Source of the DNA: a virus
Direction: 5' to 3' (one strand)
DNA: 35,115 bases
IMG/VR virus record: IMGVR_UViG_3300045440_000102
Coordinates: 1-35,115 of that record
In this document: piece by piece, positions 12,644 to 35,115 of the stretch
How the letters are laid out: the number at the start of each line of letters is the position of its first letter
How positions within the stretch are numbered: position 1 is the first letter of the stretch
Translations under genes and position numbers: made by a program
Notes under the pieces: model-generated
What the model was told of the DNA's origin: nothing
Seen by the model: only the letters and a program-made list of their open reading frames with translations
Databases searched by the model: none

Positions 12644-12916
12644 TTACACGCCAGCTGTGCCGTACAAGCCACGTGGGTCAGTCCAACCCACAGTGTATCG
12701 CTCGGTAGCTTTGTAGCGCATAGAGTCAGTCTCGAAGTCACCTTCCATAGACTTTTCTAGGCCACGACGCATCAACAGTTTCAAGCCTTCTGGCGCATCA
12801 GTCTGGATCCACCATGCGGTAGACGAGGTGATACGTGACAGGTTAGCCTGACCATCAGCCAGCAAGCCCATGGACTTAACTGGGTTGATGTCGTTGTCAG
12901 CAGTGCCTGTGCGCAA
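12644..12916 (-). CDS. Major capsid protein, C-terminal part (frameshifted from 12897-13559)
   Basis: The last 90 or so residues of the capsid protein: RTGTADNDINPVKSMGLLAD, STAWWIQTDAPEGLKLLMRR, GDFETDSMRYKATERYTVGW and DPRGLYGTAGV. This matches the expected end of the same HK97-type capsid protein whose first part is at 12897-13559. There is no ATG and no ribosome site. The frame is open further back so that it reads FLLKSVLRTGTADND across the junction. Removing one T from the TTT (AAA at 12932-12934 on the plus strand) joins the two parts as AEVLLKSVLRTGTADND in one frame of about 304 aa. The intrinsic terminator follows directly. It should be read as one gene with the next entry. Confidence 0.85.
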   Translation of the reverse strand: MRTGTADNDINPVKSMGLLADGQANLSRITSSTAWWIQTDAPEGLKLLMRRGLEKSMEGDFETDSMRYKATERYTVGWTDPRGLYGTAGV

Positions 12917-13559
12917 AACGCTCTTCAGCAGAAACTTCAGCTTGGAACACGTTAGAAGGACCGGCGACGATCTTCTTAGGTGTCAAACGGATACGCTTGC
13001 CGTTGTTGTCAACAGCGTTGCGGATCTGAATGAGCAGCTGCTCAAGTGAGGTTTGTGACAAGTTAGCTGCAGTGCTCAGCTGGTTGCTGAATGTACCGCT
13101 AACGATAGGGTGCGAAGTGCTGATCAGCGACACGCCGTCACCGCCGACATAAGCACCGTTGAAAGCACGGTTCAGAATGTTAGCAGATAGGGTTTCCTTA
13201 GTCTCAATCAGTGACTGTGCCAAGTGCTTGGCATAGGTCTGACCGATACGGATGTGGTCGCCGTCCTCAACCAAGACCTTGGTCAAGCTGAATGCCAGAC
13301 CGTAGACTTTGTAGAGGTAACGCTGCAAGAACAGCACGCCGCCGGACTGGTAAGTAACAGCCATACCGTCAGGCAATTCAGGCGCAGCGCCAAAACCATA
13401 AAGAACAGGTTCTTCGTGGTAGTTGCGTGGGATGCCTTTTTGCTCACGGAAGACCATCTTCCATTCGTCAGCACGTTGGTCGTACACACCATCAAACACT
13501 TCGTTGAGGATAGGCTCAACTACGGATCTAAAGTCCGTACTACGCATTGGGGTAGCCAT
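12897..13559 (-). CDS. Major capsid protein, N-terminal part (HK97-type), frameshifted near its end
   Basis: This frame gives 220 aa starting MATPMRSTDFRSVVEPILNE, with a very strong AAGGAGGA site, as expected for a capsid gene. Recognisable stretches are FDGVYDQRADEW, PRNYHEEPVLYGFG, VYGLAFSLTKVLVEDGDHIR, HLAQSLIETKETLSANILNR and VDNNGKRIRLTPKKIVAGPS. I recognise these from HK97-fold major capsid proteins of podoviruses and related phages. After AEV the frame runs into SAEERFAHRHC and stops. The true continuation is in the next frame (12644-12916). The total, if repaired, is about 304 aa. Scaffold and decoration genes lie directly upstream. The break is probably a one-base homopolymer error, because capsid proteins need their C-terminal domain. 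Confidence 0.85.
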   Translation of the reverse strand: MATPMRSTDFRSVVEPILNEVFDGVYDQRADEWKMVFREQKGIPRNYHEEPVLYGFGAAPELPDGMAVTYQSGGVLFLQRYLYKVYGLAFSLTKVLVEDGDHIRIGQTYAKHLAQSLIETKETLSANILNRAFNGAYVGGDGVSLISTSHPIVSGTFSNQLSTAANLSQTSLEQLLIQIRNAVDNNGKRIRLTPKKIVAGPSNVFQAEVSAEERFAHRHC

Positions 13560-19047: not shown

Positions 19048-20823
19048 TCACATAAATTGATTAGCGATTGCATCTACTTGGTCAGAATCATAGACTGACA
19101 CGCTGCCGCCTTTGGCATAATTTCTAGAGTCATACAAGTAGACGCTGTCAACGTCCTTAGGAGCCACAACATTAGCTCTTCTCACTTCACCGCTGCGAGG
19201 AAGTAAAACTTCAAATTCAGACTCAAATTTACCTGGCAGCAAGTATTGAGTGTTGGACGTAGGCAGTATCAGGCTTAAATCGCCTGCATCTTCAGCCACA
19301 TCTTTAAATCGTTTGGCTATGCTCATGTCCAAACTAGTAGGTATATAAAACGGATAAGGTTCAAACTCATCTGCTACGCTTTGCATTGTGCTTTTCTTAT
19401 TTGCACCTCGGTACAACTGAGTGTTTTTAGGCAATTCAGGAGCATTGCGAAACGCTTCGTCTAATGCCTCAGCTCTCGCACGGTTTGAACTTCGAAGCAA
19501 TGAATTGACTGGTTTAAGAAAGTTCTGATTAAGAGCTTCACGAACATCGGCAGGCAATGAGGCTTTGTAAGCAGCCCCTTCTTTTTCAATTTTGTTGGCT
19601 TTACCTGCAATGTCAAGAGCTGCTTCTCTAGGAGTTGCGTTTACCCATTTGTCACCTTCTTTGATGATCAATGTTTCTTTAGGTTTAATGTAGTCACCTG
19701 CGTATTTGGCCATCTTTTTAAGAGCTCCACCTTTTCCCATGTGGACTGGTCCGCCTTCGGCAAAACCTTGTGGCTCATCAATGCCATTTATGATCTCATC
19801 AATTTTGTCAGGGTCGTAGACTGACACGCTACCGCCTTCGGCAAACTTTTTAGACTTTAATAATTCCACAGCAGGACGTTCTAACTGGCGAAACAACTCT
19901 ATATCCGTTGCATCTGGGCTAGGAGCCAATTTAGCACCGCCTAATTGCAACTCGTGTCGGCCTAAGCCTTGACCTGCACGATAGCGCATTAGCGCCAACG
20001 GCGTTGCATCTTCTAACAAAGATGCAAGGTCTCCGCCATAATCAAAGTACTCACGCATCGCCGGGTCGTCTTGAATAGATTTAAAAGAACCTCTTTTGCC
20101 TGCATGTTGAAGCTCATAGCGTGCAGAGTCTAAGATATTGGGATCAAAAACTTTAGACGGGTCTTGAGTCTCAAAGAAGTTGTAAGAAGTTGTGCGCCTA
20201 GCTCCGTCCTTGGTTGGTGGAACTGCAACTAAAGTCCTAAGATCACGGCCGGCTTTTGATGGATACTCACGAGAATAAAACTCAAAGTCTTTACGGCTTG
20301 GAGCTGTTTGAAAAATAGAATATCCTTCGCTAGGATGTGTATGAAAATCAACGATTGTAGGAGAGCCTGGTGCACGCTGCGCCGTACGAAGGTCAAATGT
20401 ATTTGGCATTACAGAAGATTCTGTGCCTCTTGTGATGACCGACTCACCGCCTTCATTGGCCAAGCCAATGACTGAATGCTCTCTGCCTGTTTGCTTAGTT
20501 AGGCGTAATGCTTCACGAATTTTATTGGCTTGTTCCGGAGCTTCTCTGTTGATGAGCTCTCTAAACTTTCTAAGAGCAGACAAGCCTCCTGCTTGTGCAT
20601 CGCCTGCATCAAGTGCAATCAGTGCAGCACCGGCTTTACGTGCCACTTTGCCACCAGGTATCAGCATCAAGCCAGCATCAAAAGCACTTTGAGGAATCAG
20701 CATCTCTGCTGCAAACTGTGCTGCCTCAGCAACTGCGGCCTTGGTTTCTTTAGAGCTTGGCGTTGCCCGCTGCTTGCGATAACGAGGAGCAACAAACGTG
20801 TCTAGTGTATCTTCTTCAGCCAT
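19048..20823 (-). CDS. Putative two-module effector: JAMM-like protease plus ADP-ribosyltransferase-like domain
   Basis: A 591-aa protein with two modules. Module 1 (about 110-325) has IVDFHTHPSEG and APSRKDFEF, giving His161-x-His163-Pro164 then Ser176-x-x-Asp179. This is the JAMM/MPN metalloprotease motif, with candidate catalytic Glu residues at 124-135. Module 2 (about 380-560) has LYRG (Arg472), YIPTSLDMSIAKRF (Thr496-Ser497) and ESEFEVLLPRSGE (Glu536-x-Glu538). These are the R, STS-like and ExE signatures of arginine-type ADP-ribosyltransferases. Each module ends in the same tag, (A/K)-E/G-GGSVSVYD followed by D..D.I (about 328-346 and 570-587). Lying between terminase and portal on the late strand, it is probably carried in the virion and injected, as T4 Alt is, but this is inference. 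Residues 40-80 are hydrophobic and Ala-rich. Confidence 0.65.
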   Translation of the reverse strand: MAEEDTLDTFVAPRYRKQRATPSSKETKAAVAEAAQFAAEMLIPQSAFDAGLMLIPGGKVARKAGAALIALDAGDAQAGGLSALRKFRELINREAPEQANKIREALRLTKQTGREHSVIGLANEGGESVITRGTESSVMPNTFDLRTAQRAPGSPTIVDFHTHPSEGYSIFQTAPSRKDFEFYSREYPSKAGRDLRTLVAVPPTKDGARRTTSYNFFETQDPSKVFDPNILDSARYELQHAGKRGSFKSIQDDPAMREYFDYGGDLASLLEDATPLALMRYRAGQGLGRHELQLGGAKLAPSPDATDIELFRQLERPAVELLKSKKFAEGGSVSVYDPDKIDEIINGIDEPQGFAEGGPVHMGKGGALKKMAKYAGDYIKPKETLIIKEGDKWVNATPREAALDIAGKANKIEKEGAAYKASLPADVREALNQNFLKPVNSLLRSSNRARAEALDEAFRNAPELPKNTQLYRGANKKSTMQSVADEFEPYPFYIPTSLDMSIAKRFKDVAEDAGDLSLILPTSNTQYLLPGKFESEFEVLLPRSGEVRRANVVAPKDVDSVYLYDSRNYAKGGSVSVYDSDQVDAIANQFM

Positions 20824-28096: not shown

Positions 28097-28338
28097 AGCT
28101 ATACCCACATCAAGTGCAAGCGGTGCAATGGCTAGGTCAGCGACCTAAGGCCATTCTTGCTCTGGACATGGGTTTAGGCAAGACTTGTGTGTCTGCATTA
28201 GATTTAGTAAAGCCTGCGCTGGTGGTGTGCCCAGCCTCGTTGAAACTCAACTGGCAAAGAGAGCTGAAGATGTGCGTCCTGACCTTAGCGTACAAGTCAT
28301 CAAGTCACCTAAAGACCAGCCAAACAAATCTGACGTGA
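28081..28338 (+). CDS. SNF2-type helicase, N-terminal part (frameshifted from 28267-29630)
   Basis: The start of the helicase: MGNRVKLYPHQVQAVQWLGQ (Q-motif region), ILALDMGLGKTCVSAL with Walker A MGLGKT, then LVVCPASLKLNWQREL (motif Ia). After NWQREL the frame goes astray (KMCVLTLAYKSSS) and ends at 28338. The next frame continues with DVRPDLSVQVIKSPKDQ from 28267. One base seems to be missing between 28266 and 28267, for example a second G in CTG(G)AAG. The ATG lies inside the microprotein gene with no ribosome site, so translation is probably coupled. The gene is otherwise about 516 aa. Residues after 28266 in this frame are not part of the protein. Confidence 0.8.
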   Translation: MGNRVKLYPHQVQAVQWLGQRPKAILALDMGLGKTCVSALDLVKPALVVCPASLKLNWQRELKMCVLTLAYKSSSHLKTSQTNLT

Positions 28339-29630
28339 CCATCATCAACTACGACATTTTGCAGAAAGTAGAGCTGCCATCAGTCTCAACGTTGATTGTT
28401 GACGAAGCTCACTACGCAAAGAACTACAAAGCCAAACGCACAAAGGTTTTGATGCAGCTGATCAAGGCAACGCCTAACGTCAGTCTGCTTACAGGCACGC
28501 CGATCGTCAACCGGCCAATTGAGCTGTGGACTTTGCTCTACTCTATTGGCGCAACTAAGCTTGGCTACTTTGAGTTTGGCATGAGGTATTGCGCTGGTTG
28601 GAAAACACCATGGGATACCTACGACTTCACAGGTTCAAGCCGCTCTGCTGAGTTGGCAGCCCTGCTCAAACCATTCATGCTGCGGATGACAAAGACTGAG
28701 TGCTTAAAAGATCTGCCATCAAAGACTTACAGAGTCATTGAGCTTGACTTGCCAGTTGACAAGCGTGAGAAAGCTTTTGACCAAAAACAAATTGACAAGC
28801 CAGACTCAATACCTTTTGAAGCCATCAGCGACATCTTAAAGCTTAACGCTGAGCGCAAGCTGCCTGATGCAATCACATACATCAAAGACTGTCTTGAACA
28901 GACAGACAAGGTCGTGGTCTTTGCGCACCATATACACATCATTGATGGCTTGATGGAAGGGCTCAAAGAGTTCAACCCAGTTAAAGTAACTGGCTCAGTC
29001 AAGAACGAAGACCGTCAAACAGCTGTTGACACATTTCAAGCAGACAGCAAATGCAGGGTCTTTGTAGGCAACATCAAGGCTGCAGGAGTAGGTCTGACTC
29101 TGACTGCTGCAAGCCACGTAGTTTTTGTTGAAGCAAGCTGGTCGCCAGCAGACATACAACAAGCAGCAGACCGCTGCCATAGAATTGGACAGAAGGACAA
29201 TGTTACGGTCGACCTTCTGACCATATCCGAGTCCATCGACTCTTTAGTGCTGCATTCAGTGCTGACGAAGATGGACGTTATAGACCGCATCATCAAGGAG
29301 TCCACCATGGATCAATCTCTCATTGCACAAAAACTTCGTGAACTAGCCGATTTGTTTGACTCATTTGACAAGCAAGTAGAAGCAGCAGCCCCAAAGGCAG
29401 TCAAGCCAAAACCTGCTCCAACAGAACCTGTTAGCAAAATTGAAATAGCAGCCGATAACGACGTAGTTGCCACGCTAGACGACTTGCGTCAAGGCATGGC
29501 AGAATTGATTGGTTCAGGCAAGCGTGACAAAGTGGTTGCTATTCTGGCAAAACTTAACGTTAAAAAGGTTAGTGAAATTGATGAAGACAAGTTTGCAGAA
29601 GCAATGGGCCTAATCAATGGCGCACGCTAA
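28267..29630 (+). CDS. SNF2/HARP-like DNA helicase, main part
   Basis: This continues the helicase. The open frame reaches back to 28185 but is meaningful only from 28267. Motifs in order: TLIVDEAHYAKN (DEAH box), VSLLTGTPIVNRP (motif III), YRVIELDLPVD, VVVFAHHIHIIDGL (motif IV), VGNIKAAGVGLTLTAASHVV (motif V) and PADIQQAADRCHRIGQ (motif VI), which is the SWI2/SNF2 pattern. Phage members are short SMARCAL1/HARP-like enzymes that anneal or remodel DNA forks. The C-terminal 105 residues are a separate helical domain (MDQSLIAQKLRELADLFDSF ... LDDLRQGMAELIGSGKRDKV) with its own internal ribosome site. The end overlaps the nuclease start by 14 bp. Expression comes from promoter P2. Confidence 0.85.
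29307..29630 (+). CDS. Possible internal in-frame start giving the helicase C-terminal domain alone
   Basis: ATG at 29307 has a perfect AAGGAG 6 nt upstream, inside the helicase gene and in frame. It would give a 107-aa protein: MDQSLIAQKLRELADLFDSF, a Lys/Pro/Ala linker, then DLRQGMAELIGSGKRDKVVA and KVSEIDEDKFAEAMG. The last part resembles the helical domain at the end of several phage recombination and ssDNA-associated proteins (D-(V/L)-R...L....G...V..IL..L.V.KVSE...). It may be made as well as the full helicase, or it may be an independent gene later fused to it. The feature is predicted only from the ribosome site and domain boundary. Confidence 0.45.
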   Translation: MDQSLIAQKLRELADLFDSFDKQVEAAAPKAVKPKPAPTEPVSKIEIAADNDVVATLDDLRQGMAELIGSGKRDKVVAILAKLNVKKVSEIDEDKFAEAMGLINGAR

Positions 29631-30720
29631 GCTATCGCCCTCAGCAAGTGCAAGGTGGATGACCTGCCCAGGCAGCGTCCACTTAGAGCCTGACTTTAAA
29701 GGCGGCGACTCAAGCATCTATGCTGAAAAAGGCACAGCCATGCACACGGTCTCTGAAGACTGTTTGACCAAAGGCCTTGAGCCTAAGTCATTCATCGGCA
29801 AGACGGTCAACAAGCACATCATCACTCAAGAGATGGTCGACATTGTCCAAGTGTATGTCAACTACATTCAGTCTCTAAAAGGCCAGAAGTTTTACGAAGA
29901 AAAGGTCACACTGGCTGAAGTGATCAATGACTGCTGGGGCACGGCTGATGGCATTGTCATCGAAGGCTCATTGATGCGGGTCATTGACCTTAAAACAGGC
30001 GGTGGCATTCGAGTAGAGTCTGAAGGCAATACGCAGCTGCTTTGCTATGCACTAGGTGCCTACTTAAAGTATGCGCCTGCCTATGACATCACAACAATGA
30101 CCTTGACGATCGTGCAACCGCCAATGGGCAACATTGACTCATGGACCATCAGCGTCGAAGAGCTGCTTGCTTTTGCAGAAGCTCTTAAACTGTCTTATGC
30201 TGCAATTCAAAATGAGCCTAACAAGTTCGTAGCCAGTGACAAGGCTTGCAAATGGTGTCATGCCAAAGCGCAATGCCCTGAGATGAAGCGGCTAGCCAAT
30301 GAAGCTGCTGCAGTAGACTTTAACAGCATGAGCTTAGGCACTGTTGAAGAGTGGCTGCCAAAACTTAAGATGCTTAGCCTGTTCATTGAAGCCGTAGAAG
30401 CTAAAGCAAAAGACACGCTGCTTGGAGGAGGTTCAATTGAAGGCTGGAAAGTTGTTGAGGGTCGTAAAACCAGAAGCTGGACAGACCCTGCTCAAACTGA
30501 GTTGTGGTTAAAGCAGCAAGGCTATGACCAGATCTATACAAAGCCTGTTCTACTTAGTGTGGCACAAATGGAAGCCGCCCTTAAAGGTGAAAGCCTAGAC
30601 CTGGACGGTTTGGTAACCATTGGCTATGGGCAGCCAACCATAGCTCCTGAGAAGGACAAAAGGCCATCTGTGGACAAAAACCAGTCAGCCAAAAAAGATT
30701 TTGAGAACAATGCAAAATAG
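29617..30720 (+). CDS. RecB/Cas4-like PD-(D/E)xK nuclease with Fe-S cysteines (DUF2800)
   Basis: A 367-aa protein. SASARWMTCPGSVHLEP at the start (Cys17), GTAMHTVSED (about 39-48), then GTADGIVI (Asp111) and MRVIDLKTGGG (Asp124-x-Lys126), and TQLLCYALGAYL (Gln140..Tyr144) form the nuclease core. CKWCHAKAQCPEM holds Cys211, Cys214 and Cys220. Together with Cys17 this is the C...C-x2-C-x5-C iron-sulphur set of Cas4/AddB nucleases. By family knowledge (DUF2800) it is a phage exonuclease for recombination or host DNA breakdown. It follows the helicase with a 14-bp overlap. The next gene's promoter P3 begins inside its last codons. All catalytic residues appear present. Confidence 0.85.
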   Translation: MAHAKLSPSASARWMTCPGSVHLEPDFKGGDSSIYAEKGTAMHTVSEDCLTKGLEPKSFIGKTVNKHIITQEMVDIVQVYVNYIQSLKGQKFYEEKVTLAEVINDCWGTADGIVIEGSLMRVIDLKTGGGIRVESEGNTQLLCYALGAYLKYAPAYDITTMTLTIVQPPMGNIDSWTISVEELLAFAEALKLSYAAIQNEPNKFVASDKACKWCHAKAQCPEMKRLANEAAAVDFNSMSLGTVEEWLPKLKMLSLFIEAVEAKAKDTLLGGGSIEGWKVVEGRKTRSWTDPAQTELWLKQQGYDQIYTKPVLLSVAQMEAALKGESLDLDGLVTIGYGQPTIAPEKDKRPSVDKNQSAKKDFENNAK

Positions 30721-30792: not shown

Positions 30793-31761
30793 ATGTCACA
30801 CGAATTAGACTTCTCAAACGCACAAGCTAACTTTGCTCAAGTAGGTGAAAAAGCATGGCACGGTCTTGGCCAGCAGTTAGAAGCAGGACAGCCTCTTGAA
30901 GTATGGGCTAAAGCTGCAGGCTTGTCACACACAGTCGAACGCTCAATGGTTCAGTACGCTGCAGGCGATATTTTGCTGCCACACACAACACGCGATGTGC
31001 TGTATCGCTCAGACACAAATGCACCTCTTGGCGTTGTTGGCAAAGACTACAAAGTTGTGCAGCCCGCAGACGTCTTAGACTTCTTTGCTAAATTAGCTGA
31101 GAACAACAACTTCGAACTTGAAACAGCAGGTTCATTGTCCAACGGCAAGCGTATTTGGGCAATGGCTAAAGTCAATGACGGTGCAACAGTAGTTGGTCAA
31201 GACGTAGTCAAGCCGTATGTTCTGCTTGCAACATCGTATGACGGCACATTGGCTACAACGGCACGTTTTACCAGCGTGCGTGTTGTTTGCTCAAACACTC
31301 TTGGCTTTGCTGCTTCAGAAGCTGGCGACACAATCCGCATCAACCACTCTAAAGAATTCAGTGCTAAAGACACAGCTCTTGACTTAGGCATTGCATTCAA
31401 CTCATTCGATAAGTTCTTGATCGACTCACGGCGCTTGGCTGCAAAAGAAGTGAACAGCACTTTTGCAGTTGAATTCCTTAAGTTGCTTTTGCCAGAATCT
31501 GTGCGCACTACTACAGTCAATGGCATCAAAACCAAAGAGTCTGTGCCAGTAGAAAACACAAAGGCTTTCCAGTCAATCATGGCTTTGTTTAACGGCCAAG
31601 CTTTTGGCTCTGATTTGCCAGAAGCTAGCGGCTCTGCATGGGCATTACTCAATGCAGTCACAGAACACGTTGATCACGGTCTTAACCAGAATGCAGCATG
31701 GTTTGGCTATGGCAACACTTTAAAGAACAAAGCACGTGACTTGCTGATGGATGTGGTCTAA
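30793..31761 (+). CDS. DUF932 phage/plasmid-like protein
   Basis: A 322-aa protein starting MSHELDFSNAQANFAQVGEK and AWHGLGQQLEAG. It contains VLYRSDTNAPLGVVGKDYKV, NGKRIWAMAKV, PYVLLATSYDGT, FTSVRVVCSNTLGFA and ALLNAVTEHVDHG. The A-W-H-G-L-G, L-G-V-V-(G/S)-x-x-Y and V-x-x-(S/Y)-x-D-G-x-x-x motifs are diagnostic for DUF932 (TIGR03299-type). The family is widespread in phages and plasmids near recombination and replication genes, and its function is unknown; single-strand DNA roles have been suggested. It is the first gene behind P3. Full length by family standards. Confidence 0.85.
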   Translation: MSHELDFSNAQANFAQVGEKAWHGLGQQLEAGQPLEVWAKAAGLSHTVERSMVQYAAGDILLPHTTRDVLYRSDTNAPLGVVGKDYKVVQPADVLDFFAKLAENNNFELETAGSLSNGKRIWAMAKVNDGATVVGQDVVKPYVLLATSYDGTLATTARFTSVRVVCSNTLGFAASEAGDTIRINHSKEFSAKDTALDLGIAFNSFDKFLIDSRRLAAKEVNSTFAVEFLKLLLPESVRTTTVNGIKTKESVPVENTKAFQSIMALFNGQAFGSDLPEASGSAWALLNAVTEHVDHGLNQNAAWFGYGNTLKNKARDLLMDVV

Positions 31762-31850: not shown

Positions 31851-32375
31851 ATGTCAAAAATCATCACCCCTGAGTTCCGCGGTTCTTTTGTTCACCTGCT
31901 TGAGCCTCATGCAATCAAAGGCGTAGAAGGCGCAAAGGCACGGTATCAAATTACCATACCTCTTCCTAAAAAGGATGCATTCTGGAATGAACTGAATGCT
32001 CTGATTGAGGAAACAGCTAAAGGCAAATGGGGCAAGATTCCTCCTAAGATGAAGTCACCAGTTAAAAACGGTGACGAGGAAGATCGGCCTGAATTTGCTG
32101 GCTGCTACAGCGTGCAAGCCACGTCAAACAACAAGCCTGGAATTGTTGGCACAAACCTTAAACCAATCATGTCAGCCGATGAGATCTATAGCGGTGCTTA
32201 CTACCGCGCATCGATTCGTGCCTATGCTTGGGAGCATCCAACAGGCGGCAAAGGTGTATCAATTGCACTTGACAACATCATGAAGGTCAAAGACGGCGAA
32301 GCATTTAGTGGTCGCACTGAAGCTAGCTCTGACTTTGCTGACTTTGCCAAAGAAGATTCAGACTTGCTGGCTTAA
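31851..32375 (+). CDS. Single-stranded DNA-binding protein (DUF2815, gp2.5-like)
   Basis: A 174-aa protein: MSKIITPEFRGSFVHLLEPH, YQITIPLPKKDAFWNELNAL, later FAGCYSVQATSNNKPGIVGT, SADEIYSGAYYRASIRAYAW and KGVSIALDNIMKVKDGEAFS. The acidic C-terminus (SSDFADFAKEDSDLLA) is the hallmark of SSBs that contact replication partners. The order G-x-(F/Y), IPLP-K, YSGxY-x-R-x-x-x-A and G-V-x-x-x-L-x-x-(I/V) fits the DUF2815 OB-fold phage SSB group, similar in plan to T7 gp2.5. It is expressed from P3 with its own AAGGAAA site. It should coat single strands made by the helicase, primase and nuclease. Confidence 0.85.
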   Translation: MSKIITPEFRGSFVHLLEPHAIKGVEGAKARYQITIPLPKKDAFWNELNALIEETAKGKWGKIPPKMKSPVKNGDEEDRPEFAGCYSVQATSNNKPGIVGTNLKPIMSADEIYSGAYYRASIRAYAWEHPTGGKGVSIALDNIMKVKDGEAFSGRTEASSDFADFAKEDSDLLA

Positions 32376-32452: not shown

Positions 32453-33211
32453 ATGGAATCAAAGTTGATGGATCTTGTGAAGGCCATGCATGAAAAGTTT
32501 GGCTTAGAAAACACAAAAGGCGTTCTTCACCTTACCAAAGAAGAAAAAGAATTTAGGTCTGCTGCCATGCTCGAAGAGCTTAACGAGTACATCGCAGCAG
32601 ACACACTGGTCGATCAATACGATGCTTTGCTTGACTTGATTGTCTTTGCAGTAGGCACGTTAGAGCGTCATGGCTTCCCGCTGCTGGCAGGCTTTGAGAA
32701 AGTCATGGAAGCAAACATGGCCAAAGAGCTTGGTCAAAATGGTGAGAAGCGTGGAGGCTTTAAACGTGACCTTGTCAAACCAGAAGGTTGGGTTCCTCCA
32801 GAAGCAAAGCTGCAGTTGATCTTAGACCGCAATTCAAACACTCAGATTGAATTTAGCTTTGCACCTAGTTCAGATGGGAAGATTGTGGCTGGCTTTGCAC
32901 CAAAGTTTGATGCAACAAAAGTGCGCGTCGATCTGCTGCCAATTGACCCTATGATGCAAATTGCCACGGTCTTTGGCTTTGGCGCTAAAAAGTATTTTGC
33001 AAACTCTTATAGACAAGGCGAGACCGTTGTTTGGTCACGTACCTACGGATCGATCATGCGGCACATGATGGCCTTCTGGTCAGGCGAAGACAAAGACCCT
33101 GAGTCTGGTTTGCCACACCTTGCACATGCAGGCACACAACTGTTTATCTTGATGGAACATGCTGCACACAACCAAAACAAAGATGATCGCTTTGTGAGGA
33201 GTCAAGCATGA
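32453..33211 (+). CDS. Fusion: MazG-like NTP pyrophosphatase plus dATP/dGTP diphosphohydrolase-like domain
   Basis: A 252-aa protein with two parts. Residues 1-110 have AAMLEELNEYI (Glu41, Glu42, Glu45), DQYDALLDLIVFAVGTLERH (Asp57, Asp61) and FEKVMEANMAKE, the E-E-x-x-E ... D-x-x-x-D arrangement of all-alpha MazG/PRA-PH pyrophosphatases. Residues 150-240 have KFDATKVRVDLLPIDPMMQI, FGFGAKKYFANSY, YGSIMRHMMAFWSGED and GLPHLAHAGTQLFILMEH, the pattern of the phage dATP/dGTP diphosphohydrolase-type (DUF5664-like) domain. It would hydrolyse dNTPs selectively. Two genes downstream is a dCMP hydroxymethylase, so the N-terminal part may remove dCTP as T4 gp56 does. Substrates are inferred. AGGAG precedes the ATG. 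Confidence 0.75.
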   Translation: MESKLMDLVKAMHEKFGLENTKGVLHLTKEEKEFRSAAMLEELNEYIAADTLVDQYDALLDLIVFAVGTLERHGFPLLAGFEKVMEANMAKELGQNGEKRGGFKRDLVKPEGWVPPEAKLQLILDRNSNTQIEFSFAPSSDGKIVAGFAPKFDATKVRVDLLPIDPMMQIATVFGFGAKKYFANSYRQGETVVWSRTYGSIMRHMMAFWSGEDKDPESGLPHLAHAGTQLFILMEHAAHNQNKDDRFVRSQA

Positions 33212-33474
33212 AAATAAGCAACAGCACAGGAAAGAGCAAGGACTTCTACAACAAGGGTAAGGAGATGTTTGACCGAATACAGCCGTTGCCAATGAGAAAA
33301 ACAGTGACCGAAGAAGACGATGACACACTGGTGTACAAGAAACCGTGGGTAAACCTGACAATTGAAGAGATTGAAACAATTGCCAAACCTTATATAGAAA
33401 AAGACAGAAGCATTCAATCATGGGGTCTTTACGCAGTTGCCATTGAAGCTAAGCTTAAGGAGAAGAACGCATGA
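33208..33474 (+). CDS. Small hypothetical early protein
   Basis: An 88-aa charged protein: MKISNSTGKSKDFYNKGKEM, VTEEDDDTLVYKKPWVNLTI and EEIETIAKPYIEKDRSIQSW ending EAKLKEKNA. W-V-x-L-T-x-x-E-I-x-x-I-(A/S) near the end is a recurring motif of small phage proteins (often with a C-terminal A-R/K-I/A-E-A-K-L-K-E-K-N). ATGA overlaps occur at both ends, with the fusion enzyme and the next gene. No function is known. Confidence 0.7.
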   Translation: MKISNSTGKSKDFYNKGKEMFDRIQPLPMRKTVTEEDDDTLVYKKPWVNLTIEEIETIAKPYIEKDRSIQSWGLYAVAIEAKLKEKNA

Positions 33475-33647
33475 ACGAAAATCAAACTTACCTTGGCGAC
33501 GGCGTTTACGCCAGCTTTGATGGCTACCAGATTTGGTTAGCTGTAAACCATCACGAGAACACAGTTGTGGCCATTGAGCCAAAAGTTATGGATCAATTGC
33601 TGGCGTATGCTAATCGTGTTTGGAAAATAAGGGAGAAGAACACATGA
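33471..33647 (+). CDS. Small conserved early protein (LGDGVYA family)
   Basis: A 58-aa gene: MNENQTYLGDGVYASFDGYQ, IWLAVNHHENTVVAIEPKVM, DQLLAYANRVWKIREKNT. The Y-L-G-D-G-V-Y-A-x-F-D-G-Y-x-I-W-L opening is a pattern I recognise in many small phage early proteins of unknown role. AAGGAGAA lies before the ATG and the start overlaps the previous stop (ATGA). It ends with another ATGA at the dCMP hydroxymethylase gene, so these genes form a tight translational chain. Confidence 0.75.
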   Translation: MNENQTYLGDGVYASFDGYQIWLAVNHHENTVVAIEPKVMDQLLAYANRVWKIREKNT

Positions 33648-34294
33648 ATGTGCAATCAATCCGTCAGATCTTGATCGACAAACTGGCAATGTTAGATTTT
33701 GCAGATGATGGCAACATTGAGATTGTCAATGCGTCATTTGTTGCAGACAAGCCTTTTATTTTTGGTGAAATCAATGACACATGGAACGCCAGGGAGTTGC
33801 GCTGGTACATGAGCCAATCGCTTAACGTCAATGACATTGCGCCTCCTGTTCCTGCCATATGGAAGCAAGTAGCCAGTTCAAAAGGCCTGATCAACAGCAA
33901 CTACGGCTGGTGCATCTTTAGTGCTAGGAACGGTTACCAATTCCACAAGGCCGTTGATGCATTGGTTAAGAACAAAAACAGCCGTCAAGCCGTGATGATC
34001 TACATCCGGCCATCGATGCATGAAGACTCTGTGGTTGATGGCATGCGAGACTTCATGTGTACGTACAGCACTCAGCTCTTGATTCGTGATGGCAAGTTGC
34101 ATCACATAGTCAACATGCGAAGCAACGACGTTGTTTATGGCTACAAAGGCGATAGGTTTTGGCAAGATACGGTTCTTGACTTGGCACTTGCCAGATTGAC
34201 TGTAACTTACCCTGATCTAGTTAAAGGCAACTTGTACTGGAATGCCGGTTCGTTGCATGTCTACCCTAAACACTTTCATTTGGTGCGGCCATGA
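33644..34294 (+). CDS. dCMP hydroxymethylase (T4 gp42-like)
   Basis: A 216-aa thymidylate synthase-fold enzyme. ATG 33644 overlaps the previous stop; an upstream start at 33620 is not needed. Stretches IEIVNASFVADKPFIFGEIN, IWKQVASSKGLINSNYGWCI, GMRDFMCTYSTQLLIRDGKL, VNMRSNDVVYGYKGDRFWQ and AGSLHVYPKHFHLV closely follow T4 gp42 as I remember it. Glu51, Cys139 and Asp170 correspond to T4 Glu60, Cys148 and Asp179, a constant offset of nine. Asp in place of the Asn of thymidylate synthases is the residue that selects dCMP over dUMP. The product would be 5-hydroxymethyl-dCMP from dCMP and methylene-tetrahydrofolate. The C-terminus is about 30 residues shorter than in T4. A dCMP kinase and a glucosyltransferase are not seen in the window. 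Confidence 0.85.
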   Translation: MNVQSIRQILIDKLAMLDFADDGNIEIVNASFVADKPFIFGEINDTWNARELRWYMSQSLNVNDIAPPVPAIWKQVASSKGLINSNYGWCIFSARNGYQFHKAVDALVKNKNSRQAVMIYIRPSMHEDSVVDGMRDFMCTYSTQLLIRDGKLHHIVNMRSNDVVYGYKGDRFWQDTVLDLALARLTVTYPDLVKGNLYWNAGSLHVYPKHFHLVRP

Positions 34295-35115
34295 TCTTCA
34301 ATCCTTTTGCTTCAATCCCTGTCAATGAGAAGTCACACGTTCGTGGCTGGGCCATGCATTGGGCAGAATGCATGAACACGACAATTGCAGCTAAAGATAC
34401 AGACCTAAGTTCATGCAACGAATTGTTTTGGGAGCATGGCGTAAACTTTGGAGGCGGGCTCAATCTTTTTGGCGGTGTGACTGATGAGATCGTTGACAAG
34501 ATCGAGCAGCTAGTCAACTTCAATGGAGACCTGTATAGCTTAGACTTGCCAATGCCTAACTACGCTGAGCAGCTAACCAAACGCATAGGTCAATCGACTT
34601 GTTCGACTCGGCTCACTGAAAGCCTTCTTGATGCTTTTAAGAAGAAACTGGCCACCAGTCAAACGCTTTTACAAAGCCAGCTAGGTTTTACAAAGGTAGC
34701 CATAGGCGATAGCCACGCAACTGCTTTTGCTGCATCTAGAAGCATGGTGCTGCGTACAAACGGTTTGACTCTGCACGGAGCTTTAACCAAAGGCGAGTTT
34801 GTGAAACAGATACTTGCTTGCAAGAAAATGCCGGCTAAAGTGACCTTGGTTGCAGGCTCGATTGACATACGGCATCACATTGGCCGTCAGCCTGACTCAG
34901 GCAAAGCCATAGAAGACTTGTGCGAACGGTACGGTGAGGTGATTGAGTACATCAAAAACGAATTGGCATTAGCGGTAGAAGTGGCAGCACCGGTTCCAGT
35001 AGAGTATGAGGCGCGTAGGCTGCCACAGACTGGTTACTACAAAGACAAGCCTTTTTGCGGTTCAATGGCTTCTAGGCGAGACTGGACAGACTATTTCATA
35101 GACCTTATGTATTGT
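34291..35115 (+). CDS. SGNH-hydrolase-like protein, partial (open at right edge)
   Basis: 275 codons to the window end with no stop. ATG 34291 overlaps the hydroxymethylase stop (ATGA). The N-terminal 100 residues contain SSCNELFWEHGVNFGGGLNL, FGGVTDEIVDKIEQLVNF and LYSLDLPMPNYAEQLTKRIG. The central part has KVAIGDSHATAFAASRSMVL (GDSH, 139-142), TNGLTLHGALTKG and VTLVAGSIDIRHHIGR (Asp192, His195, His196). The last part has RRLPQTGYYKDKPFCGS. GDS-x near a strand end, a later Gly and a D-x-x-H pair are the catalytic layout of SGNH esterases or acyltransferases. It is fused by overlap to the base-modifying enzyme. A role in further modifying hydroxymethyl DNA or nucleotides is speculation. I do not recognise a named family. 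Confidence 0.55.
   Translation, partial: MIFNPFASIPVNEKSHVRGWAMHWAECMNTTIAAKDTDLSSCNELFWEHGVNFGGGLNLFGGVTDEIVDKIEQLVNFNGDLYSLDLPMPNYAEQLTKRIGQSTCSTRLTESLLDAFKKKLATSQTLLQSQLGFTKVAIGDSHATAFAASRSMVLRTNGLTLHGALTKGEFVKQILACKKMPAKVTLVAGSIDIRHHIGRQPDSGKAIEDLCERYGEVIEYIKNELALAVEVAAPVPVEYEARRLPQTGYYKDKPFCGSMASRRDWTDYFIDLMYC

Follow-up and report, generated by a model that had tools for sequence, protein, structure and literature searches.

The locus raises the question of why a phage with podovirus-like relatives should carry, in its early operon, an enzyme resembling the dCMP hydroxymethylase (gp42) of phage T4, and what would become of the modified cytosine that such an enzyme makes. The window, i.e. 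the whole stretch of DNA analyzed, is an IMG/VR record of only 35,115 bases and for this reason is probably a fragment of a genome. When contigs of the window virus that overlap this record were sought, two came up, both already-known relatives. The features considered here are listed below; the first four belong to the same early operon as the hydroxymethylase.

28185..29630, + strand, SNF2-type helicase (PF00176 and PF00271)
29617..30720, + strand, DUF2800 exonuclease-like protein (PF10926, E 8.8e-83)
30793..31761, + strand, DUF932 protein (PF06067, E 2.1e-55)
31851..32375, + strand, ssDNA-binding/annealing protein (PF10991, E 2.2e-42)
32453..33211, + strand, MazG/PRA-PH-like pyrophosphohydrolase (PF01503, E 4.4e-6) with a dATP/dGTP diphosphohydrolase-like domain (PF18909, E 2.1e-28)
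33208..33474, + strand, ORF of 88 aa that follows the pyrophosphohydrolase and precedes the hydroxymethylase, with no Pfam or PHROG match
33644..34294, + strand, predicted dCMP hydroxymethylase (gp42-like), 216 aa, with E51, S85, Y87, D136, C139 and D170
34291..35115, + strand, c2, predicted to have an SGNH hydrolase fold; of its roughly 320 aa the first 275 are included before it runs off the window end (PHROG 13881/17781)

The window virus and its relatives

The closest comparison is offered by the near relative G047 (43 kb), which is collinear with the window and shares 94.6% identity in the terminase, 94.4% in the portal, 87.0% in the hydroxymethylase and 84.4% over 275 residues of c2; the 88-aa ORF was not seen at the corresponding place in G047. 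Another relative, G051 (55 kb), possesses an SU10 adaptor (E 4e-28) and a DNA-ejection protein (E 1e-8), and has a single weak match to a tape-measure protein (E 1e-4). Among annotated portals, the closest are those of Caulobacter phage RW and its kin; after these come an uncultured phage, the Roseobacter phages CRP-901/902 and pelagiphages, HTVC023P among them. The HTVC023P-type pelagiphages are classed as Podoviridae in the available text of PMC9599517; the paper on CRP-901/902 mentions neither the tail type nor hydroxymethylation or hypermodification. An earlier note on this DNA had placed the hydroxymethylase in the early operon of a probable podovirus. The operon, on the plus strand, was recovered as described, and the podovirus assignment is plausible from the podovirus-like head and tail set of the relatives (SU10 adaptor, DNA-ejection protein) and the portal kinship with HTVC023P, which makes 'probable podovirus' a reasonable, tentative label.

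Two features of the structural region deserve mention. The major capsid protein is split in the window into two overlapping ORFs of 220 and 90 aa (12644-13559, - strand), a frameshift or sequencing error, and G047 has a single protein of 304 aa. Between the terminase and the portal lies a 591-aa protein (19048-20823, - strand) that matches an Alt-like ADP-ribosyltransferase (phrog_802, E 3.5e-5) and contains an HTHPSEG stretch resembling, by eye, a JAB metalloprotease; its counterparts at the same place are 451 aa long in G047 and 1,456 aa in G051.

Specificity of the hydroxymethylase

The hydroxymethylase ORF starts with an ATG from which its relatives also align, and translation could also begin at a TTG in the same frame, 24 bases before it. 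The protein is identical to T4 gp42 at 113 of 216 aligned positions and to E. coli ThyA at 41 of 203. Using phmmer against solved structures, we obtained the T4 dCMP hydroxymethylase as the top match (E 4e-63), followed by thymidylate synthases (E 1.8e-10) and the MilA CMP hydroxymethylase (E 4.6e-10); judged by sequence, the likeness to gp42 is far above chance level. Pfam places the protein at superfamily level only (PF00303, E 1.3e-13), and its PHROGs label is thymidylate synthase. Among 50,697 phage records, 1,087 match it at E ≤1e-3, none of them with 60% identity or more.

Both catalytic residues of the thymidylate synthase (TS) superfamily, the Glu and the Cys, are kept (E51 and C139). 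Alignment bore out the residue correspondences proposed earlier: Glu51, Cys139 and Asp170 equal E60, C148 and D179 of gp42 at a constant offset of nine, and long stretches such as SNYGWCI (SNYGWAI in T4) and MRSNDVV are common to both proteins. In gp42, Cys148 acts as the nucleophile, Asp179 recognizes cytosine, and Asp145, Ser94 and Tyr96 direct the reaction toward hydroxylation (PMC6400193, available text). The hydroxylation signature is kept in the window enzyme, with D136 three residues before the Cys and S85 and Y87 two residues apart; in E. coli ThyA, Leu and Pro stand in the columns of T4 Asp145 and Ser94. D170 lies at the column of E. coli TS Asn177, which bears on cytosine specificity. 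This column is Asn in ThyA, as the earlier note had stated for thymidylate synthases, and likewise in SPO1 gp29. The TS hallmark residues Asn177 and His147 are absent from the window enzyme, which has Asp and Thr instead. TS homologues on modified-cytosine contigs mostly carry Asp at position 177, according to the available text of PMC8670742.

The alignment and tree that had been suggested as a test group the window protein with gp42 and not inside the dUMP thymidylate synthases. In a tree of 84 rows, obtained by a quick, short search and containing several long branches, it falls within a 69-row gp42 clade (SH-aLRT 99), and the ThyA-type (TS_N) and SPO1-type (dUMP_HM_N) rows are each split off by a branch with support 100. 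The residues, signature and tree agree in identifying ORF 33644-34294 as a real T4 gp42-type dCMP hydroxymethylase. From the residues, tree and structure-based signature, the protein is thus predicted to be cytosine-specific and to convert dCMP to hm-dCMP; the enzyme itself is a further member of a known family. Two other assignments were rejected. The residue, the signature and the tree rule out an ordinary thymidylate synthase, and a dUMP hydroxymethylase is ruled out by the comparison of SPO1 gp29 and three environmental enzymes, all E-C-N-N, with the E-C-T-D of the window.

An Asp at the cytosine-specifying position was found in all 64 hydroxymethylases read, one per environmental sequence group (65 groups minus one whose protein is shorter than 150 aa). 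The description of this enzyme as best known from T4-like myoviruses is therefore too narrow, as it also occurs in these 64 groups and in a 41-kb Microbacterium phage; Asp-type enzymes of environmental phages have already been reported (PMC8670742, available text). In the Microbacterium phage, Alakazam (L255), the gp42-type E-C-T-D enzyme is encoded near glycosyltransferase, thymidylate kinase and MazG genes. The enzyme of Agathobaculum phage AB434P2 (L254, 1435-2097) is annotated as 'deoxyuridylate hydroxymethyltransferase', yet it has the cytosine-type residues E-C-T-D, and the name may be wrong.

Genes downstream of the hydroxymethylase

The start of c2 overlaps the stop codon of the hydroxymethylase. 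Among hydroxymethylase relatives (28 loci), the usual gene order is helicase-exonuclease-DUF932-annealing protein-MazG-hydroxymethylase-c2-c4-c10-dCMP deaminase-DNA polymerase. The window reaches only into c2 and the positions of c4 and c10 are past its end; we infer that both genes follow c2 in the window virus.

The distribution of this cassette was analyzed in 251 loci forming 109 sequence groups, largely chosen via c2, c4 or c10; alignment searches with c2, c10 and c4 gave 277, 382 and 103 relatives, and the best 80 of each were kept. The most frequent neighbor families are c10 (88 groups), c2 (85) and c4 (82), all three above 80 of the 109 groups, which were largely selected through them; the hydroxymethylase (65), MazG (56), dCMP deaminase (53) and F6 (42) follow. 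The hydroxymethylase occurs together with all three cassette genes in 54 of the 109 groups. The fetched DNA includes a hydroxymethylase in 46 of the 83 groups reached only via c2, c4 or c10, leaving 37 without, and in 42 of the 60 groups with c2, c4 and c10, leaving 18. Wherever both are present (61 groups), the hydroxymethylase and the cassette lie on one strand, with a median gap of 412 bases.

Whole records of the groups without a hydroxymethylase (51 searched) yielded a TS-family match in 12. These comprise an Asp-type enzyme in four (L053, L138, L185, L251), both gp42 and an ordinary synthase in each of the Aeromonas phages 44RR, 25 and AS4, two matches truncated by the end of their contig, and weak matches in three records. 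The weak-match enzymes read (L269, L270, L273) are SPO1-like E-C-N-N, and the ORF of the third record was judged alike by eye. For groups with all three cassette genes, the full enzyme was thereby recovered in L053 and L138 and end fragments in L066 and L111. After the whole-record search, L179 (83 kb), L091 (93 kb) and a 174-kb record were still without a hydroxymethylase.

To obtain a control selected independently of the cassette, we searched with a RecA/UvsX alignment, which gave at least 598 relatives, and retained the best 80. The comparison is confined to the 33 loci whose upstream sequence spans 5 kb or more, one of which (L324) shares sequence with the earlier loci; the other 47 of the 80 were dropped for having less than 5 kb. 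An Asp-type hydroxymethylase is present in 9 of the 9 loci that bear cassette genes versus 7 of the 24 that do not (Fisher p 3e-4). When the 5-kb cut is removed, the proportions are 9 of 15 and 9 of 65. Five of the nine control cassette loci have c2 and c10 (four of them also c4), and four have c2 alone.

In T4, the gene order is gene 42 - beta-gt - homing endonuclease - uvsX. Gene maps read by eye gave the order hydroxymethylase - (deaminase) - cassette - RecA in 21 groups. Thus, in T4-like phages the cassette occupies the place of the beta-glucosyltransferase between gene 42 and uvsX, and it looks like a new variant. The glucosyltransferase that the earlier note proposed to look for was not found: neither T4 beta-gt (PF09198) nor GT2 (PF00535) has a match in the window and eight relatives, the records of which may be fragments (the T4 control in the beta-gt search scored 1e-99).

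The models of c2 and c10 were made from the L005 homologues and not from the window virus. The c2 model (pLDDT 92.4) has the fold of an SGNH hydrolase (nine PDB matches at E ≤0.001; Z 12.8, 3.4 Å over 167 residues). GDSH, Asp192 and His306 are invariant in the family alignment, and the position three before His306 is not Asp (Ser in the L005 protein). In the window, the GDSH (S141) and GSID (D192) blocks are intact and His306 is past the end. By the fold and the conserved blocks of its homologues, c2 is predicted to belong to the SGNH hydrolase superfamily. Among 52 c2 members, one has a match to PF19040, a domain of the SGNH type that occurs in fusion with acyltransferases.

The c2 family also takes in the N-terminal part of ORF233c of Aeromonas phage 44RR (hhalign E 8e-58). 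This 795-aa protein (L030, 5992-8379) combines a c2 domain with a C-terminal part that has a weak HMUDK_hel match (E 0.0036, below the cut-off), and it is encoded in a T4-like phage with gp42, adjoining a sodium:solute symporter. The c2 homologues of 44RR and AS4 both adjoin a symporter of the sodium/glucose type, and that of Aeromonas phage 25 (L032, 3767-7038) is two genes away from a UDP-galactopyranose mutase.

The c4 protein is predicted to be a PLP fold-type-II enzyme. It has a PALP match just under the cut-off, a cysteine synthase match at E 0.005, an invariant Lys63 and an STG loop. The same family is also found on contigs that encode a hydroxymethylase of the SPO1 type (Asn) together with an HMUDK_hel protein; these include L279 (record G039) and L280-L282, all found via c4, in which the HMUDK_hel protein is encoded near or beside the hydroxymethylase. 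The fusion of c2 in the gp42-bearing phage 44RR and the presence of c4 with the Asn-type enzyme and HMUDK_hel suggest modules common to the hmC and hmU pathways.

By sequence, c10 has no match in the PDB, and 50 of its 51 members have none in Pfam, the other having one stray match. Its model (pLDDT 90.4) was compared with the PDB by VIA-align, run on Foldseek candidates; Foldseek alone gave no match under E 0.99. The first match is the PaMx11 5-PmdU glycinyltransferase (8z2n; Z 10.3, rmsd 3.9 over 208 residues), a score that helical models may reach without kinship, and the runners-up are AGOG 8-oxoguanine glycosylases (Z 8.4 and below). Against predicted viral structures, the best named match is an 'amino acid:DNA transferase' (UniProt name, E 2e-35). 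It is one of three models with E <0.001 among the seven best, the two others being unnamed. Four more follow at E 0.004 to 0.2: a second amino acid:DNA transferase, a protein of pyrophosphorylase clade 1 (E 4e-3), the SP10 5-hmdU DNA kinase (E 0.07) and a phiW-14 protein with the helical domain of that kinase. Assignment of c10 to the amino acid:DNA transferase family is therefore likely rather than proven, as a Z of 10.3 can arise between helical models. An expected link of c10 to the C-terminal half of 44RR ORF233c was not borne out, as the c10 profile does not match that ORF; the same half gave nothing credible against the PDB by sequence. The match of the c10 profile to an HMUDK_hel protein is not significant (E 0.086).

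F6, a 331-aa protein, shares 41 of its 42 groups with c10; the searches gave it no name and none was seen near the podovirus-like operons. Usually together with F6, c10 is found without any hydroxymethylase in 8 groups, one of which includes a 174-kb record. Contigs of this kind (L152, L139, L170, L174 and similar T4-like ones) have c10 and F6 with no hydroxymethylase found, and several of them also bear an HhH-GPD glycosylase-like gene. A uracil-DNA-glycosylase-superfamily gene lies in or beside the cassette in L187 (2350-2772), and its family, f15, is present in 20 groups.

Proposed pathway and alternative readings

We consider it likely that hydroxymethylcytosine in these phages is hypermodified by an amino-acid-type pathway via c2, c4 and c10, as the cytosine counterpart of thymidine hypermodification. 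What is shown directly is that the hydroxymethylase has the identity and residues of a cytosine-specific enzyme and adjoins c2, that in relatives the cassette keeps its gene order and occurs with the enzyme, and that c2 and c10 are predicted to adopt the folds described above. Thymidine hypermodification pathways are known from phages M6, ViI, PaMx11, phiW-14 and SP10, and in them a PLP enzyme accompanies the amino-acid step; such a step is proposed here because of the c10 fold and the accompanying PLP enzyme. Because c2-c4-c10 point to further decoration, the 5hmC DNA predicted by the earlier note, itself plausible for the window virus, would be the first step only and hmC probably an intermediate.

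In T4, a dCTPase acts and the hydroxymethylase follows. By analogy, the MazG-like enzyme encoded just upstream would probably lower dCTP and supply dCMP to the hydroxymethylase, which would form 5-hydroxymethyl-dCMP (hm-dCMP) with methylene-THF; these two steps would follow the T4 logic (PMC8056088, available text). Then hm-dCTP would be incorporated in the phage DNA as 5hmC, and the cassette would decorate the hydroxymethyl group after replication. Most likely, c10 would attach an amine or an amino acid at the 5-CH2. As a PLP fold-type-II enzyme, c4 would then reshape the adduct, and c2 would add or remove an acyl group as an SGNH hydrolase/acyltransferase. The hypermodified cytosine would block restriction and nuclease attack.

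The pathway would also involve activation of the hydroxyl; a phosphorylated base is the substrate of the known PaMx11 transferase. Close relatives of the window yielded no kinase for activating hmC. The phage dNMP kinase phrog_139 is absent from the window and seven of eight relatives, with a weak match in an APS-kinase-like ORF of G047 (44RR control 3e-56). HMUDK_hel, a model of a helical domain and not of a kinase, has no match in the records of L005, L011, L013 and L016, and the thymidylate kinase family gave one match only, under the cut-off, among nine relatives. In G047, a sulfotransferase adjoins the APS-kinase-like gene near the record end, after the tail-region genes (41863-43250; L285, 1863-3250).

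The reading has two gaps, namely the missing hmC kinase and the lack of a named role for c2. The kinase result weighs against it, as do the sequence searches that gave c10 no family match, the 8 groups with c10 but no hydroxymethylase, the 18 of 60 groups with all three cassette genes but no hydroxymethylase in the fetched DNA, the four of nine control loci with c2 but neither c4 nor c10, and the UDP-galactopyranose mutase near c2 in Aeromonas phage 25. More tentatively, and with somewhat less than even confidence, we propose a widespread and seemingly uncharacterized phage route in which cytosine is hypermodified with an amino-acid-derived group, replacing glucosylation in T4-like phages and occurring in podovirus-like genomes too, with kinase-free activation, perhaps acyl activation by c2.

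Simpler chemistry would suffice if undecorated 5hmC replaced cytosine and c2, c4 and c10 were unrelated to DNA, serving, for example, the surface or amino-acid metabolism. The window holds the hydroxymethylase and part of c2 only, the fold of c2 is that of an esterase and c4 is similar to enzymes of metabolism; however, this reading appears unlikely given that the Asp-type hydroxymethylase and the cassette co-occur and adjoin, that the cassette stands at the beta-gt place in T4-like phages and that c10 resembles DNA-base transferases. Decoration of hmC with a sugar or acylated sugar, c2 being an esterase/acyltransferase on the glycan, would fit the UDP-galactopyranose mutase near c2 in Aeromonas phage 25, the sodium/glucose-type symporter beside it in 44RR and AS4 and the single PF19040 match among 52 members. 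We hold it to be quite improbable, as neither a T4-type glucosyltransferase nor GT2, the two families searched, was found in the window and eight relatives.

Modification of thymine or uracil by the cassette, with a separate role for the hydroxymethylase, deserves very little credence: all 64 hydroxymethylases read are of the Asp type, and the fetched DNA of the podovirus-like relatives, searched with the c0 profile only, contains no Asn-type enzyme. This reading draws on the action of known kin of the c10 fold on 5-hydroxymethyluracil derivatives, on the occurrence of c4 with SPO1-type Asn enzymes and on the HTVC023P-type podoviruses, which pair TS with aG/PT-PPlase1 (PMC9599517, available text). 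An Asp at the specificity position by itself tells cytosine only (PMC8670742, available text) and would also suit a dCMP methylase, but this assignment is extremely improbable, since the Asp-Ser-Tyr hydroxymethylation signature is present and, in the comparison with gp42 and E. coli ThyA, 113 of 216 residues equal those of gp42. The methylase reading would give 5-methylcytosine. Xanthomonas phage XP12 has such a dCMP methylase.

Amino-acid-type hypermodification of hmC, if true, would make amino-acid-decorated cytosine a new DNA base and would account for the orphan gene ORF233c of 44RR in cultured T4-like Aeromonas phages, which would offer a testing ground. It would also bear on glycosylases, type IV enzymes and other defences that recognize modified cytosine, as well as on tools built on 5hmC chemistry. 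The hmC decorations of phages named in the available text of the cited papers are glucosyl-, arabinosyl- and carbamoyl-hmC, and the amino-acid or amine ones are named for thymine. No description of amino-acid-decorated cytosine was recognized in the literature searched, with preprints and some key papers beyond the reach of the search, and we do not claim that it is unpublished.

The pathway has parts in common with several known systems. It shares with T4 gp42 and beta-gt the fold family, the catalytic and specificity residues, the tree clade and, in T4-like kin, a modification gene between the hydroxymethylase and uvsX. In contrast to T4, the window genome is podovirus-like, a glucosyltransferase was not found and an SGNH/PLP/transferase-like cassette stands at that place. 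In thymidine hypermodification, too, a TS-family hydroxymethylase goes with a PLP enzyme and with an amino acid:DNA transferase, the fold predicted for c10, whereas here the hydroxymethylase is cytosine-specific (Asp), the PLP enzyme is of fold type II, an SGNH protein is present and HMUDK_hel has no match in the four relatives searched. The carbamoylated hmC system (MetaGPA; PMC8670742, available text) includes an Asp-type TS-family enzyme, a PRA-PH pyrophosphohydrolase and a dCMP deaminase as well, but no carbamoyltransferase was found among the proteins scanned here, which include c2, c4 and c10 instead; the main text of that paper uses none of the words 'Pyridoxal', 'PLP' and 'SGNH'. Finally, the HTVC023P-type pelagiphages share a distant portal kinship (about 30%) and a GroES-like gene near the portal, and some of their clades possess TS and aG/PT-PPlase1, which the authors, in contrast to the cytosine pathway proposed here, read as thymidine hypermodification (PMC9599517, available text).
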